Source: Muricea muricata
Lineage: Eukaryota; Cnidaria; Anthozoa; Malacalcyonacea; Plexauridae
Length of the DNA: 64,000 bases
NCBI GenBank assembly: GCA_963855995.1
Contig: OY979723.1
Location: forward strand, 11,050,713 to 11,114,712
Reading direction: 5' to 3'
Both the position numbers and the translations under genes were made by a program. Shown here in pieces: positions 3,753-63,855 of the stretch (positions are counted from its first letter, which is position 1; each line of letters opens with the position of its first letter). Below the pieces are notes generated by a model. That model made no database searches, was not told the origin of the DNA, and worked only from the letters and a program-made list of their open reading frames with translations.

Positions 3753-6700
3753 TCATACAGTAGACTCACGTGACTGTGTTCGATGTCTGCTCACGTGATG
3801 ACCAGGTGATAGTTCACCCACGTGATTAGTGACTATTTCATGTTCCTCATCTGTAGGTATTAGGACCGAGATCTCTGCTTCGTCGCCATCTTCTCGGCTG
3901 TGACGTTTTTTCACGTGATTTCCTTTCACGTCATTTTTTTCCTTATCGTCCGCTCGCGAACGGATCGGCTCAGATTTGACCCGCCGCTTGGCGCCAGTGC
4001 TTTTGCAGTCGTTCACGTGAACTTCAGGGTTAGCTAGAGATAGGGTGGACTCAAGGGGTGAACCAACGGGTGTGCAGAATGACGAAGAGCTTCTGCCATC
4101 TGGTCGTAAAGGTTCGCCATTATACGTATACTCCATTTCTGTGAAGTATCGGGACTAGAAAAGTAATAATACGAATTGAGTGAACATACAACTCCCCCGT
4201 CTCAATATATCAGTATAAACATCTAAACAAGCGAATTACTGATAAACATTCAGCTTCGATACAGCTACTATAATTCAATTAAGGTTGACATCGACAATGG
4301 TCAAATATAATCACAGTTTTACCTGCTAATGTTAAAGATATCATACTAAATACTATAGTTGTAATTCAGTTGGGCCGCTGATGTGCTGATCTTATTTTAA
4401 ACTTTATTTTCGTCATCATTCGTTTCCACATATCTCTACTTACCGTTGCTTTCTCCAGACATCGTATTAAGTGTTCATGTTGTCGATCTAGCATTGTTTT
4501 CTCTTTATCCTTGGACGAGACTTGTTGAAGTTCCATACCAGCACCCTAGTGAAGAGAAATACGTTGCCATGAATATGCTTGGCTCTGAACTCATAAATGT
4601 ACATGGCTCTATGTTCACGGCTGTTTCTTCAGTACCACGTCTCTTTTGTATCAGTTTCAATGTTTCTTTGTACTTTAAAGCATTTACTTTCCATTAAGGC
4701 TTTTAGTTCTGTACACGTTTCTAGTATAAAGGAGTGGTGTGAAAGATCTCTTCAAAGTGAAACAAAATTTGCACTCACCACGGAGACGGAAGTGACATCA
4801 CCAGGGGTTACAAATGCTGTCCCTGTCATTGTCTTTGATATTGAAATCTTTGCTTTCTATCAAGAGCAAATAACAATGCAAGAATTCAGTATGCTGACCA
4901 TTGGTATCATTATTACCACCACTACCACCTTATCATACTCCCTTCTCACCGTTATTTTGCCATATCATGTATCATAGTTAACACTCTACCATGTAATCAC
5001 TATTCAATCGTTATAACCATCTTCCAACAACACTATACCACCTTGTCTAGCATAAAATATCATTACTATCATCATCATCTTACAATAATATCATCCTATC
5101 CTACATCGTGTGCCTGTCATCGTGTCATAATCATCAATCTTCTACCATTACCATACAACCTCGTCTACCGTGAATGCCCTCACCACCATCATCGTACTTT
5201 GATCACCAATCTACCATCACAATAACCATCTTCCACCATCACTATACAACGTCGTTTACCATACGCATCATATCACCACTATCATCATCTTACCATAATC
5301 ACCAATCTACCATCAATATAGCTATCTTCTATAATCACTATACCACCTCTCTTACCACAAATATCATCAGCATCATCACACCCCCCCCTCCCTTTATCCT
5401 CACAACCATCACCATACCATCTTATCCATCAGCGTACCTTGTGTGCTTTCCTCTTGTCTGCTCGCTGAGTCTGAAGGTAAATTCGACTAAAATTCGAGAC
5501 AATAACTGGCACAGGCAGTGCAATTACGAGCACACCACTAAGAGAACATAAACTACCAACAATTTTACCAAAAACCGTTTCTGGTACCATATCACCATAT
5601 CTAGAATGTAAAACATAATGAATTTCACGAAATCGTTCACCAAAAAAGGCATTTCCCATGAAAGTACTAAACTGATGCCCCTCAGCCGCTTCGATAAGGC
5701 CATAGTTAATAGAGTAGATGGTTTGGAAACTCATTAGAATAACAATAAAACTCATTATCTATGTTGGTCAACGTTTATTCAAAAATATGGTTCTTCATCG
5801 TCACGTGTGTATTGTGTTTTCGCCAAATCCACCAATAGGAATTCTAAATTTCCTAAAACGTTGCTATTGGTTAGGTGAAAATACAATACGCACGTAACGA
5901 CGAAGGACCTCATTCCTGCATAAACCAGAACAAAAACATAGATAATGACTTATATTGTAGTTCTAATGAGTTTCCAAACCATCTAGCTCTATTAACTATG
6001 ATAAGGCGTGGTGATAAATGTGACTTATATATGAAATTATGTCCAGTGGTAAAAACTAACTATTCTGTAGCTGTTACCAGTTAATATACCACACATTCAG
6101 TGTAATATATAATATTCTTTCTATACCTGAATGTCATGCAACAACAGAAAAGCTGTTCAGCAGTTTTGGTACAAAACTATTAAATGTTCGTTTACAGGCT
6201 CTTTGACTTTGCATATAAAGTATCAGTCGTTCTTCTGCTAGTACAATGATGAATTTTTTTTAAATAATCCCTATTTCCCTGTATATGTGTTAGACGCAAA
6301 CATGTCGATAAACTAGGAAAGACTCTCGATAGCTCCTTAAAATCTACAAATTAAATTATTTCTGTAGTTTTCATTCTGGAGAATTGAGGCCTTTCATGGA
6401 CACTTGATTATTGTATTCCTGCCCAACTAACTAATAGCAACATTTTGGGAAAGCCAGCCATATGTTTTTCAATATTGCCAACACGTGCCGATGAAGGGCC
6501 ATATTTATGACTAGCGTAAAGATAATGAGTTATTGTTACTCGGATGAGTTTTCAAACCATTTATTCCATTAACTGCGATGCAAAGAATAATGGAACGAAA
6601 TTGTTTTCCCTATATAAGACCAAATTACTTTGAAATTCAAATTAGAATTAATTTTAGCTTCACTAATTGAAAATGGAATTGAAATGCTTTTATTTTTTTT

Positions 6701-23460: not shown

Positions 23461-26400
23461 ATGGCACCAATCCTTGCTTACTGGGATATCCGAGGGGTAA
23501 GTTGATTCGAGTTAAATTACTTATTTATCTTTGTTATTTTGCACTGGAACTAAGAGCTTTAATTGTATGTACCACACACGTGTTCAAAATATTCCTGTAG
23601 GCCACAATTTTTTAAACATTGATTTCTCATTCGTGGCCTCCAAAGTAGCCGCTGTAAAGTTCTCTAAATATAGTTATTTTCTACAAGCATGGACGATTTC
23701 TGAATTCCAAAAAATATCACATATAATTCACACGTGTCCATCTGCACGCACCTCATCCTATGCAAAATCCCATGCTTTAAAAGTATGTCACGTGAACATG
23801 CAGCAGTGATTATTAATGATTGATTTTAGCCTGATCTGAGATTATTATTTCCTCTTGGTGGCCATATTTTTACTTGCAGAATAAGCTTATTAGCACCAGT
23901 AAAATGATGCATGTCATTATATTTAATGCAAATCCCTGTTTTATTTTGCATAATTTATACATCCAGACATTTATGAGATCTTTAATATAACAGACTACAT
24001 TTCTACATTAATGACATAATCAAAGAGTAGAGACTACAAAGAGAGACGGGTTTAGTCAAAAAAGTGTAAGGTGCTTTTGTGATGATTCGTCACAGGTGCC
24101 ATGCATTGATCTGTATAATACTGGATCACGCATTCATAATTAAATTTTGAAGTCATCGCCGCCATATTGGTTCTCCAGGTCCAGTGTTCTTTGCAGGTGT
24201 AAGAGTAAGCTTTTAAGCAGCGTTTTCAATTTCTGTAAATTTCCTTAAAATAAGGAAGTTTATTTATCTATTGAAAATGCTGATTGTCCGCCATCTTGGT
24301 ACTCCAAATTCGTCATTTCTGCTGGCTTCACTTGATGTCATTGAATGCGTGATCCATTATTATACAGATCAATGGCGCCATGTTCCTAGCCAGTGCCCTA
24401 AACAGAAGTGTTTTCTGCCGTGATAAGTAGCCCATCTTTAATATTCCCGGGGGGTGACTTCCTCTGTTTGGGGCACTGGCTAGGAACATGGCGCCCATGA
24501 AGAATCATCACAAAAGCACTTTAAGCTTTTTTGACTGAAGCTGTCTCTCTTTGTAGTCTCTATTCCTTGACATATGGTAATGCAACAGTCATTGTAAATC
24601 TCCACACTCTCAGAGCACTCCCCAAGTGTGGTTTAATATCCAGGCTTTTCAGTAAAGGGTGTGAGAGATGTTCAATTTGAGAATTTACCATAAAAATTAT
24701 AGCAAATAATATCGGATATAATGGTGTCAGTATTTTAGCAAGGAATGTCTATTTTAAAAAGTAAGACTGCTGTCTATGATAAAGTGACAGTTCCATGCCA
24801 TATTTTCTAACTACACATACTTATTAGCTAAAATTTTGATTTTTTTACCCAGCTTGCTCAGCCAATCAGATTATTATTGGCGTATACAGAAACAGAGTAT
24901 GAAGATAAACGCTACGCTTGTGGTCCTGCCCCTGGTAATGTCACGCTTGTACTGAACAAAATTTAGTCCTTAAAATCTGCATGTCTTTTATGTTCAGTTA
25001 TAATTAAGTGATTTTTTTTAGATTATGACAGGGAGTGTTGGTTAAAGGATAAGGCAAATTTAGGACTGGATTTTCCCAATGTGAGTCTCAAAACCTCTAA
25101 TCCATGAAGTTTTTATGGACTAAAGTGCATCTGTTTTTATACAGACTTTACTTAGGGTTGTGTACTGTATGATCTATGCTGCTAGTAAAATTAAGCCCAT
25201 TCAAGACACTTTTGATTTATCCATGTTTTTGCAAATGATGAGATTGCAAAACAGTACCCCCATTTTATCCATCTGCCCCTTTTTTGCCAAAGCATTCATC
25301 AATTATGGACCTAACTTTTCTTGCCACCAGTAGGGTAATGCTTTTTTTTGTACACAGAGTCACCCTGGTAGCTGTAGTATCCCTACTAGCCAGAGTGACC
25401 CAACCTATGATTTCATTGCTTTTTACAGCTTCCATATTATATTGATGGGGATACTAAGATTACTCAAAGCAGTGCTGTAAGTGCATAAAATTGAAAAATT
25501 AAACAAGGCTTACCTGTGAAGTGAAGTTTGATTTAAATTCTGCGATTTATTTATTGGTCAGGAACACGAAGTCAAGTCGCGTGATTTCCTGTGAACTGAC
25601 CAATGATGAAGTAGAAGTGTGAGCTTTAATGTTTCCAGTGTCACTAGTGCAGTTTAAAGCACCAAAAACAACAAAAACTATAGGATATTTCATGTCCTAA
25701 TTTTGCTCGGAGGTCTTGTTCAAATATCGTAGTTTCATGGAGAGAATGCCCTTTTCGTGACAAATTGAAGTGTTATTTGTATTGCTGAGGTAGCCTAATA
25801 TCCTATTGTTTTGCATGTTATAAGTACATAATGCTTTAGTGAAAAGTTATGTCACACTCAAGTATGGTATTATGAGGTTGCAAAATGAAAACTAAATATA
25901 ATTTCATGTTTTATAGATTATAAGGTGCATTGCTAGAAAGAACAACTTGTGTAAGTCTATGAATTTGCTAACTAAATATCATCCTTACTATTAAGTTACA
26001 TCACATCGATGCAATATGTTCTTTTTTATAATTATATATCAAAGTGATTGAGTTTTTCTTGTGGAGGCAATAGCTTCACAGGCAACCTAAATAAGTGTTA
26101 TTATTTGGTTTTCTTGTAGCATTAGATATCGTTAACTAATATTTTATATTGGAAATTTTATTTTGTCAGCTTTTGATGATTTATATTCCTGTGGTTTTTA
26201 TTAGGTGGGACAACAGACAATGAAAAGACGATGGTTGACATGGTGGAGAATTGTGTAAGTGTGCAGCAATATTAACTTGTTTATTAAATTAATACAAGGG
26301 AGACAACTTACTTGTTATAAATGTGCTATTTTTCTTACAGATCATTGACTTCCGAAGTGGATTTGTTGGACTCTGCTACAGTCCTGATTTTGTATGTCTG

Positions 26401-43196: not shown

Positions 43197-52994
<9,798 letters not shown>

Positions 52995-61100: not shown

Positions 61101-63855
61101 TTTTATTCAACATGTCTGGACAACCTGATGGGGGCAAAATCTCAAACTTTCTTCTTGAAAAAGTAAGCGTTAAAAGTGCTGTTCATTGAGATAGTCTTGT
61201 GCGTTGGATATGCCAATGATACCAAAACTTTCTGTACTCTCTTTTGCCTCCCGTCTAGTCACGTGTCGTATCCCAGAATCCTGGCGAGCGTAACTATCAC
61301 GTGTTTTATCAGCTTCTACGAGGATGTCCCGATGAAGAGAAAGGTAGAAAATTTTCTAACAAACGATACATGCATCAGGGAAAATATGTAAGCGGAATGG
61401 GGGGAGGGTGGGGGCTCAAAATGTTTCAATCCTGGAAGACGACGAGAATAGGGTAAAAAATTTATGAACTACTGTTTTCTGGCTAATGCCCCCCTCTCTC
61501 CGTAAATAATGACAGCTCCCTAAATTGGTAATGTTACTGACAGTACTGTATTGAAGAAAACATTGGCTAATATAATAGATATGCCGGCTCTGTTGTTCTT
61601 TAAAGTTTTTTGGGAATGGAATGAGTTGCATTACATTACGAGATTATACCGTCCTGAAATGTTTGTTTTGGTTTTAGAATCACTAGGTTTACAAGAATCG
61701 GACCCAGCAAAATATTTTTACTTGAACCGTACTGGAGGAGTATATGATGTCTCGGATGTTGATGATAACGAAGAATTTCATGCAACCATGGTTAGCTATA
61801 TCACACGTAGAAACATTAGAACTCATAGCAAGTCTCCAGCGACAAAGTGATCTAAAAAACCCGGAAAAATACTAACAAAGTTGTCAAATTTTTCGAGCCA
61901 ATCTAGCAAATTTCTCATCAAGTATAATTTACTTCGATTCCAAATTTCTGGTGGACTTATACTTTTCTTTACAGAACATGATTAAAAAGTTTCATAAAAC
62001 AACAAAATGGATCTTTTATTCGGTTGCTAGTTCCAGGCCTTTTATTGACGGTCAGATCAGCTGGAACAAGTTGTGTTAATTCCCGCTGCATGCTTTTCTC
62101 AAGCTGGTGGCAAATTTGGAACAACTTATTCACCACTTGTAACAAGCTTGACTGGAATATTCTCCTAACAACTCTGATAAAGACTTGTCGTAATTAACAA
62201 GATTTTCACAAAGTTGACAGACAGAACAAAGCTGTAACGATATTGTTATATCAAAATTGTATCAATCTTGTTGTAACAAACTTGCGACAAATCTGATGGT
62301 CCCATTGTTCTACAACTTGCCAGCAGCTTCCGAACAGACTTGATACAGCTTGCGTAACTGGTATGCTTCTATTGAACACGCATACATAGAATTAACTGAT
62401 TTCGCATATTTTCACTGTAATTCCTAGAATGCAATGAGTGTTGTTGGTATGTCTCGAGAACGTCAAGAAAATGTACTGGAGACCATTTCGGCCATTTTGC
62501 ATCTTGGTAACATCCAATTTGTCGAGGATAACAACGTTGCAGAAGTCGAGAACCACACAGGTAACCTTTCACAGGAGCATGTTAGCAAGAACCCCCATCC
62601 TCCCTGGGGGCATCCTCGTGCGCCATCCATCCTAATCGTATGTGGCAACCTCAAAACCAGGGTTTTTTACGCTTTGGATACAGGCATGATTGTTCAGTAC
62701 GAGTCTAAGTTTAATACGTTAACAGAAGGTTAACCAAAGATAAGAAATTTTAGGTTTTACGTCGGAAATTTAGTCTGAATGTGTAATAATAGTACCACGC
62801 TCCTTTCTGGGCAATCTCGTTCCCCGAGCCTGCGATCCCTTGGGAAGGAAACGGAGGCTCTGGGATAATCCGTGATCGACATACAAAAAACTGTATGTCG
62901 CCTGTACAGCGCATGCTTTGGAAATAAATAGTTCAATAAGACGAAGGGAAGAAGCAGGCATATAAGTGACTTTCCATAACCAGTAGGCAAGATACAAATC
63001 GTGTCTTTCCGGTCGACAACAACAGCCTTCACCGCTTCGTATTGACACTCCTTCAATTTGAGATTCTTCTTACCCAGTCGCTCTAACGCTTCGTCCAACA
63101 CAGAATTAAATACACTAATATTTTCTACTGACATTACAAACAAAATAGTAAAAGTACTGTTCCAAAAAGCTTTAGAAAAAGGCTATTGCGGCTTATTTAA
63201 TCGCATGCGCAGTACAAGCGACATACAGTTTTTTGTATGTCGATCACGGATTATCCCAGAGCCTCCGTTTCCTTCCCAAGGGATCGCAGGCTCGGGGAAC
63301 GAGATTGCTTTCTGGGGTACCGCGTTTAACGCAGCATTTTTTAGTGTTGCTAAAACTCTGATTAAGTACTTTCTCACGTCAGATTTGGATGTTCCGGCAA
63401 AACTTCTCGGAGTGGACAAGGATTCGCTGAAAGAAAAATTGGTCAGGTAATGTGTACAACGTTCAAGATTCAGGAATATTGACCAAGCGAACATAATGAA
63501 CGGTCTATTTGATTTATTTAGCTCAGGATTACATGTAGTTACAGAATCGAAATCTGTTTTCCTGGTTTTACTCATTAATATCTTTGGGTTTTTTCTTTGT
63601 GAAACTGGTTAAAACTTAGCGATTGTGTTTGTGAAACGGAATTATAGATCCACCATAAATTTTGGAACAAATCAAAGCGTATTTAAACAGAGATGTAACA
63701 GTTTAATCGCCAAATGGATTTCCAATCAACAACTAGTGCCAGTGCCAGTTTTTTGTGGTATAACGCCTTGCGCATTTTTTGCATCTAGTCGCTTGATGGA
63801 GGCTCGTTGGGGAGGTAAAGTTGACATTATGATGATGACGCTCAACCTTGAACAG
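58159..63855 (+). CDS. Unconventional myosin, class-I-like motor domain (partial, continues past window)
   Basis: Twelve exons: 58159-58452, 59200-59264, 59495-59642 (tentative), 59888-59985, 60347-60437, 60913-61002, 61085-61162, 61259-61343, 61678-61790, 62428-62560, 63383-63446 and 63789-63855, all in phase. Motor motifs in order: [46 protein letters not shown], the P-loop GESGAGKT, switch I NNNSSRFGK, and [12 protein letters not shown] followed by [16 protein letters not shown]. These match class I myosins (Myo1e/f-like), ATP-driven actin motors at membranes. Switch II, neck and tail lie beyond the window, so the class is inferred. Oddities: an acidic N-terminal extension with four 12-residue repeats, and, if exon 3 is right, an insertion of nearly 50 residues before PPHIYAL, where relatives have about ten. 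Exon 3 ends at a weak donor (GTTGGT). Intron 10 contains the helicase-bearing element at 62811. Confidence 0.87.
58162..58305 (+). repeat. In-frame 36-bp (12-residue) repeats, four units, in the myosin N-terminus
   Basis: Units read [36 protein letters not shown] and [12 protein letters not shown], directly after the start Met. All are acidic and the phase is exact, so the array preserves the reading frame. Confidence 0.85.
59690..59855 (+). repeat. Acttgatg-rich repeat block in a myosin intron
   Basis: cggacttgatgttttcaagt, gcatcgagcctgttagac and agacttgatgaaactt resemble words of 52440-52600. Lies between tentative exon 3 and exon 4. Confidence 0.45.
60780..60905 (+). repeat. CCAA/CTAA tetranucleotide low-complexity tract
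   Basis: Imperfect (CCAA)n, (CTAA)n and (CAAT)n runs immediately before myosin exon 6 (60913); close enough to the acceptor to affect the polypyrimidine tract. Confidence 0.85.
62085..62375 (+). repeat. Acttgt/caacaag repeat block in myosin intron 9
   Basis: Words such as ccacttgtaacaagcttg, aatcttgttgtaacaaactt and ctacaacttgccagcagctt recall the block at 54655-54835. Non-coding. Confidence 0.5.
62811..63308. mobile_element. 498-bp TIR element carrying a RecQ-like helicase fragment
   Basis: The 106-bp terminal inverted repeats at 62811-62916 and 63203-63308 differ at only about two positions (near the inner ends, ctgtacagc against ttgtactgc). The left end is GCAATCTCGTTCCCCGAGCC. TTTCTGG flanks both sides (62804-62810 and 63309-63315), a 7-bp target duplication, or 8 bp if the preceding C is counted. 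The 286-bp interior encodes part of a helicase on the minus strand. No transposase is present, so it is non-autonomous. It lies in myosin intron 10. Confidence 0.9.
62930..63143 (-). pseudogene. RecQ-like ATP-dependent helicase fragment (N-terminal part)
   Basis: The minus-strand frame starting at 63143 contains [19 protein letters not shown] followed by [19 protein letters not shown]. This is the Q-motif-like entry and Walker A region (PTGYGKS) of RecQ/DEAD helicases, where RecQ usually has PTGGGKS. Similarity stops about 25 residues past the Walker A, near the left inverted repeat, and the remaining frame runs into that repeat. The DEAH box and later motifs are absent, so it cannot be an active helicase. 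It may be a captured exon or the remnant of a gene from an autonomous element. Confidence 0.8.

Follow-up and report, generated by a model that had tools for sequence, protein, structure and literature searches.

The inverted-repeat element in the window, the 64,000-nucleotide stretch of DNA analysed here, is very probably a non-autonomous, MITE-like internal-deletion derivative that belongs to a multi-copy family within the AcademH group of DNA transposons. The helicase piece that it carries was probably inherited from a larger, helicase-carrying transposon and not taken from the host. Internal deletion was one of two origins offered in the original prediction, and it is supported because a long relative in the same genome shares the layout of the element (a target duplication of 9 bp, and a terminal 13-mer and helicase spacing that are similar), because a closely related locus, L096, continues the helicase, and because helicase and DUF6589 genes are frequently paired (50/104).

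The element and its insertion site

The two inverted arms at 62811-62916 and 63203-63308 are 106 nt long, are identical at 104/106 positions and have 286 nt between them, just as had been predicted. As a chance control, the surrounding 1.3 kb was simulated 200 times with a first-order Markov model; perfect inverted matches in these simulations reached at most 16 nt, and the inverted repeat, which occurs a single time within the window, is therefore far beyond chance. The interval first proposed, 62811..63308, contains a real repeat, but its outermost base belongs to the target duplication. The mobile element itself spans positions 62812-63307 (496 bp, CAATC...GATTG), boundaries that we placed there because the copies elsewhere in the genome mostly align from exactly 62812 to 63307. 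With this correction, the inverted-repeat element is confirmed. Its terminal inverted repeats proper are 105 bp long and 98% identical to each other, and the left one, which contains an inner palindrome (CGACATACAAAAAACTGTATGTCG at 62877-62900), is predicted to fold into a hairpin. The element is flanked by the target duplication CTTTCTGGG at 62803-62811 and 63308-63316, which is 9 bp in length and not 7-8 bp as initially thought. It sits in an intron of a myosin gene, between exons at about 62428-62560 and about 63383-63446; the exon limits were set by eye from splice sites, and the best protein match is myosin I. The features of the site are as follows.

62803..62811, no strand: left target site duplication CTTTCTGGG, 9 bp (9-10 bp duplications in 19/19 fetched solitary copies)
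62812..62916, plus strand: left terminal inverted repeat, 105 bp, starting CAATCTCGTTCCC (repeat comparison)
62916..63134, minus strand: truncated helicase reading frame, 73 codons (start codon at 63134; runs into the left repeat)
62917..62937, no strand: putative internal-deletion breakpoint zone (similarity to L096 covers 62938-63192 and ends here)
63135..63202, minus strand: spacer from the right repeat to the helicase start codon (63135-63192 common to L096)
63203..63307, minus strand: right terminal inverted repeat, 105 bp, ending in GGGAACGAGATTG (repeat comparison)
63308..63316, no strand: right target site duplication CTTTCTGGG, 9 bp (flank comparison)

Copies in the genome and recent movement

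The original prediction had proposed a genome-wide search with the repeat, and such a search in the window's own assembly (453,007,491 bases in 74 contigs) shows that the repeat is not confined to this site. We found at least 40 further near-full-length copies of 487-501 bp with 93-99% identity, a number that is a lower bound because only the best 40 of 404 candidates were scored. Together with the copy in the window, these are at least 41 matches, that is, the short, non-autonomous copies of near-uniform length and in number by which MITEs are recognised. To examine their flanks, we fetched 20 stretches holding 21 copies. Target duplications without any fixed sequence were present around all 19 solitary copies among them (9 bp in 16 copies and 10 bp in 3), and the remaining two, which are nested in one locus (L048), have none.

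The near-identity of the two arms had been taken as a sign of recent movement, and the comparison of copies agrees with this. Averaged over all pairs of 22 copies, the one in the window among them, the difference is 2.0%; from the majority sequence of these 22, the window copy is set apart by 3 substitutions, and from its nearest copies by 1-3. Older copies are under-represented in these figures, since the 22 compared copies are the best-scoring ones and not a random sample.

The helicase stub

The stub reading frame runs on the minus strand from 63134 down to about 62916 (MSVENIS...LLNYLFPK). It begins with a start codon 173 bp in from the element's right end and, 73 codons on, runs into the left repeat. 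As predicted, it contains a helicase motif with the Walker A sequence PTGYGKS, and it has weak matches to known helicases: E=0.00095 against Pfam DEAD, which is under the curated cut-off, and 9e-4 to XPBII and 4e-3 to WRN in a phmmer search against the PDB, where some of the lower-ranking entries are chance matches (porphobilinogen deaminase at 0.07, for example). Motif I (Walker A) is thus kept, and everything from motif Ia onward is missing. Among 68 pattern matches in viral contigs there was no relative of the stub, and the repeat of the element, used as an exact pattern, had 0 matches in viral contigs; prokaryote contigs gave one weak match to the stub only, with 41% identity over 32 residues.

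Long helicase and DUF6589 elements in the same genome

A search with the RecQ model (TIGR00614), in which 27 loci were scored as the best of 1,186 candidates, led to a different helicase that adjoins one of these loci. The helicase in this neighbourhood (L057) matches DEAD with 48.8 bits and Helicase_C with 38.8 bits, both over the cut-off, and further on, on the opposite strand, there are two DUF6589 frames, one with 71.7 bits (over the cut-off) and one with 25.5 bits (just under it). The second terminus of L057 itself was not found within the 9.9 kb examined.

When the part of the helicase that is absent from the small element was used as a query, at least 149 places were found (from the best 150 of 364 candidates), and a DUF6589 search gave at least 104 places (from the best 102 of 515 candidates); DUF6589 was not detected in 14 prokaryote controls. 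These counts refer to places and not to elements, as some genes give two. A helicase place lies within 10 kb of 50/104 DUF6589 places, compared with approximately 0.7% expected if the places were evenly spread, and among the matches listed the two partners converge in 48 of the 50 cases. Seen from the other side, a DUF6589 place lies no more than 10 kb away from 52 of the 149 helicase places, so that among the matches listed 54/104 DUF6589 places and 97/149 helicase places stand without a partner. The places crowd on one contig (C1), which holds 100/149 helicase and 70/104 DUF6589 places with 27% of the bases. Because of this crowding, the true chance rate of pairing on that contig is higher than 0.7%, but it is still far below 50/104.

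One relative is full-length. It covers 7,080 bp (G000:C6:12360571-12367650, L068), has a repeat that is perfect over 69 bp and is flanked on both sides by the 9-bp duplication TGTGACAGG. A helicase lies inside one of its ends and faces a DUF6589 gene. Near the other end, on the opposite strand, there are frames with a DUF6589 match of 30.3 bits, over the cut-off of 27, and with a zf-AD-like finger that scores 23.6 bits and so misses its cut-off of 28. This relative was read in three pieces, and a middle of about 1.76 kb, with part of the DUF6589 match, falls outside them.

Termini and layout of small and long elements

The terminus of the 7,080-bp relative, CAACCTCGTACCC, and that of the small element, CAATCTCGTTCCC, agree at 11 of 13 positions. 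Out of 30 fetched helicase loci, 16 were compared with one another, and in 15 of them CAACCTCG is found near the point at which similarity is lost; in the sixteenth (L079), similarity starts 127 bp further in. The distance from the helicase start codon to the terminus is also alike, with 173 bp in the small element, about 177 bp in the 7,080-bp relative and about 164 bp in a second helicase locus, L058, where the start codon was taken as the nearest upstream methionine.

The 105-bp repeat was also compared with 62 loci (the 27 RecQ-model loci, 31 helicase loci and L093-L096), none of which matched it at E<=0.1; most of these loci include only about 1.5 kb of flank. As candidate parents, the 27 TIGR00614 loci and the 31 helicase loci were consequently rejected, none having the repeat in the stretch examined, and no longer element with an identical 105-bp repeat was found in loci mostly read with this flank. 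Three exact matches to the end of the left arm that continue with a different next base all lie in small copies. The likeness to AcademH ends therefore resides in the terminal 13 bases, since beyond them the 105-bp repeat is unmatched in the loci compared. The longer copies anticipated in the original prediction exist in the form of related long elements with helicase and DUF6589, but in the stretches read none of them shows the same 105-bp repeat.

Continuation of the helicase past the probable deletion

L096 is identical to window positions 62938-63192 at 93% of the DNA over 255 bp. Its helicase continues past the breakpoint with IIVISPLN and then VVDEAH, which we take to be motifs Ia and II, respectively, and has one stop codon between them. 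The codon differences between L096 and the window piece comprise 9 amino-acid-changing and 5 silent ones, with a dN of 0.061 and a dS of 0.122; that dN is lower than dS may weakly suggest that the ancestors of this piece were under coding constraint. In the 148 bp upstream of L096, the terminus of the small element was not seen; CAATCTCA occurs there as a possible, unproven counterpart.

The first piece of L096 scored 66 bits with L093 and 59 bits with L058, both AcademH-type helicases, compared with 45 bits for the best RecQ-model locus (L031) and 42 bits for the next, where the RecQ side of the comparison consisted of RecQ-model open frames and not of individual intron-bearing host RecQ genes. 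L031 itself contains part of an AcademH helicase. Besides L096, L093 has the protein nearest to the stub among the fetched loci (46% over 57 residues), and its DUF6589 neighbour is divergent, one of only 2/50 such pairs.

L096 is also part of a different kind of structure. Among the best 150 of 589 candidates in a search for stub-like places, there was no open frame longer than 271 amino acids, but seven convergent pairs of stubs with 81-84% amino-acid identity, 3.1-3.7 kb apart, and L096 belongs to one of these seven structures. No DUF6589 place lies inside them among the matches listed. Three closer stub pairs were also seen (one on contig C4 and two on C5), two of which lie within loci of nested small copies.

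Discussion

We propose that the parent of the 496-bp element would have been a transposon with a RecQ-like helicase gene that starts approximately 165-180 bp in from one terminus; from the other terminus a DUF6589 gene, which presumably encodes the transposase, would run inwards. In one copy, a deletion would have removed almost all of the DNA from the inner end of the left repeat to about codon 73 of the helicase. The 496-bp product would keep both ends, which are presumably the recognition sites of the enzymes, and the 5' stub of the helicase would be retained as dead cargo, seemingly without a use. Enzymes of related AcademH copies would then move this product in trans, giving rise to the 9-bp and sometimes 10-bp duplications.

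A different parent is conceivable, namely the stub structures themselves, which at about 3.5-4.1 kb carry a stub at both ends and would be non-autonomous or form a lineage distinct from the helicase and DUF6589 element. The seven facing stub pairs at 3.1-3.7 kb speak for this, and so does the fact that L096, the closest longer relative found, is one of them. On the other hand, L096 lacks the terminus of the small element in the part that was read, the protein identity of the stubs reaches only 81-84%, and the structures and the small element could share one autonomous AcademH ancestor family. We regard descent from the both-ends structures as unlikely.

The original prediction had also raised a Pack-type capture, in which an unrelated non-autonomous element took up the first exon of a RecQ-like host helicase. 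In plant Pack-type elements, inverted repeats surround a gene fragment, and the same arrangement is found here. The stub does weakly resemble WRN, RECQ5 and XPB-type helicases, and this genome is rich in RecQ-type open frames, 27 of which were scored. However, the stub opens at a start codon whose spacing from the terminus is close to that seen in L068 and L058, and the duplication length and the terminal 13-mer resemble those of helicase-encoding elements. In addition, the closest longer relative found for the fragment is not a host gene but L096, which belongs to the dispersed paired structures, followed by AcademH-type helicases. To these L096 is nearer: its first piece scores 66 and 59 bits with them, and 45 and 42 bits with the open frames of RecQ-model loci that represent the RecQ side. 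The start-codon position and these scores favour an AcademH-type source, so that capture of a host exon is unsupported and, in our view, highly improbable. The fragment differs from that of a Pack-type element in that it most likely derives from the parent transposon's own gene.

We see next to no chance that the element stems from another helicase-bearing superfamily, Helitron or KolobokH. Helitrons are not known to have terminal inverted repeats or to make a target duplication, whereas the element has both. KolobokH transposons likewise encode a RecQ-type helicase of their own, placed downstream of a DDE transposase, but in the accessible text of PMC9587614 they are reported only from fungi and Kolobok duplicates TTAA (4 bp), as opposed to the 9-10 bp duplications without fixed sequence in an animal genome. 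The 9/10-bp duplication fits AcademH and not Kolobok. Finally, an assembly inversion artefact, a caveat of the original prediction that could by itself account for a near-perfect inverted repeat, is refuted by the at least 40 copies at other sites, with their own 9- or 10-bp duplications in 19/21 of those fetched.

AcademH was named in 2020 (Kojima 2020, Mob DNA 11:15, as cited in PMC10045372), and according to the same partly accessible source, AcademH duplicates 9 or 10 bp and AcademX 3 or 4 bp of target. Terminal inverted repeats, 9- or 10-bp duplications and a helicase on the element are shared between AcademH, as outlined in the accessible parts of PMC10045372 and PMC10799480, and the elements found here, and a full-length helicase-bearing element of matching layout is present in the same genome. 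In contrast, the window copy is 496 bp long and encodes no complete protein. The putative link to the transposase runs through Pfam DUF6589, and the termini were compared with those of elements in this genome and not with published consensus sequences. The transposon with a helicase as cargo, which had been suspected to be a less familiar architecture, thus holds up as a helicase-carrying transposon, but the architecture has been known as AcademH since 2020, as the accessible text of PMC10045372 indicates.

The element resembles MITEs that arise by internal deletion in its short, near-uniform length, its many copies, the preservation of its ends and its likely mobilisation in trans, and differs from them in retaining 5' coding DNA of the parent's helicase and not only non-coding DNA. 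A description of the 496-bp family was not found in the literature on DUF6589 or AcademH MITEs, with most subscription papers outside the scope of this search, and the papers found that join AcademH and MITEs are, judged by their titles, on fungi. MITEs of corals have been described, and in the accessible text of PMC2872659 these are TTAA piggyBac-type elements, unrelated to the 496-bp family.

It is quite possible, though we put this forward tentatively, that DUF6589 is the core of the animal AcademH transposase, with a convergent RecQ-like helicase as its partner and 9-bp duplications as its product, and that full-length and miniature elements coexist. Some recently moved derivatives would then carry the helicase stub at one end and others, perhaps, at both. 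In the boldest form of this idea, one might speculate that the 5' region of the helicase is kept for a cis-acting function in transposition. Our results also suggest that the many helicase fragments in this genome are in large part transposon debris and not host RecQ paralogues. No new biological principle is indicated; what the genome offers is a young non-autonomous AcademH-type family beside full-length elements, and such natural short substrates would make the roles of the helicase and DUF6589 testable in a little-studied superfamily.

The 496-bp family is accompanied by a sister subfamily of 506 bp at 5 places, one of them partial (L090). A piece of this subfamily reads SLIYQLLPFVL and differs there from the stub of the 496-bp element. 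All three solitary sister copies that were checked (L088, L089 and L092) are flanked by 9-bp duplications, and one sister copy, which has inserted into another's repeat, is bordered by a separate 9-bp duplication, GCTCCAATC.

Paired helicase pieces and a second RecQ-bearing repeat

Among the best 150 of 589 stub-like candidates in the genome of M. muricata, seven structures each contain two inward-facing copies of the helicase 5' piece, with 3.1-3.7 kb between the two.

Paired helicase 5' pieces (positions of the two pieces)
C1: 115252554 and 115255955
C8: 3501921 and 3505315
C3: 57338273 and 57341630
C2: 14049291 and 14052571
C15: 9122713 and 9126102
C1: 121471007 and 121474945
C1: 5009418 and 5012808

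These structures, of which 1.5 kb of one (locus L096) was read, are possibly long inverted repeats with coding sequence inside.

A helicase matching the RecQ model (TIGR00614, 299-336 bits) was also found on a second dispersed repeat type among the best 27 of 1,186 candidates, at loci L021, L022, L026-L029 and L031-L034. Copies of one family are 95-99% identical over a span of about 2.7-3.5 kb, with boundaries that lie at a sharp end at ...GCCTGCGGAGGAGGCTA or at a start near TAGCCTCCTCCGCAGGC. This repeat looks like another RecQ-bearing transposon, one whose termini are different. In two copies, L031 (around 3900) and L032 (around 340, reverse), similarity to L057, a locus with AcademH-type helicase and DUF6589 frames, breaks off at the precise start of that locus's AcademH element. 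Such a break is the pattern expected for a filled versus an empty site, seen here on one side; the far junction lies outside L057.

Of the helicase places listed, 100 of 149 fall on contig C1 (124 Mb, 27% of bases), as do 70 of the 104 DUF6589 places listed, whereas the listed stub places show no such clustering, with 26 of 150 on C1. This contig may be a scaffold that was joined or that is rich in repeats.

Hairpins and other inverted repeats

Hairpin folding is predicted for the repeats of both the small element (window 62812-62916) and the terminus of its long AcademH-type relative, L068. Each contains a subterminal palindrome, CGACATACAAAAAACTGTATGTCG in the former and GGCGACAAAATGTCGCC in the latter, which is possibly a binding site.

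The window also contains an inverted repeat at 24020-24570 (84-nt arms, 383-nt spacing) and a 300-bp imperfect palindrome at 5701-6000; no clear target duplication was seen in the immediate flanks of either. A dispersed repeat forms an inverted pair at 49335-49580 and 61847-62066, with 77% identity and a separation of 12 kb.
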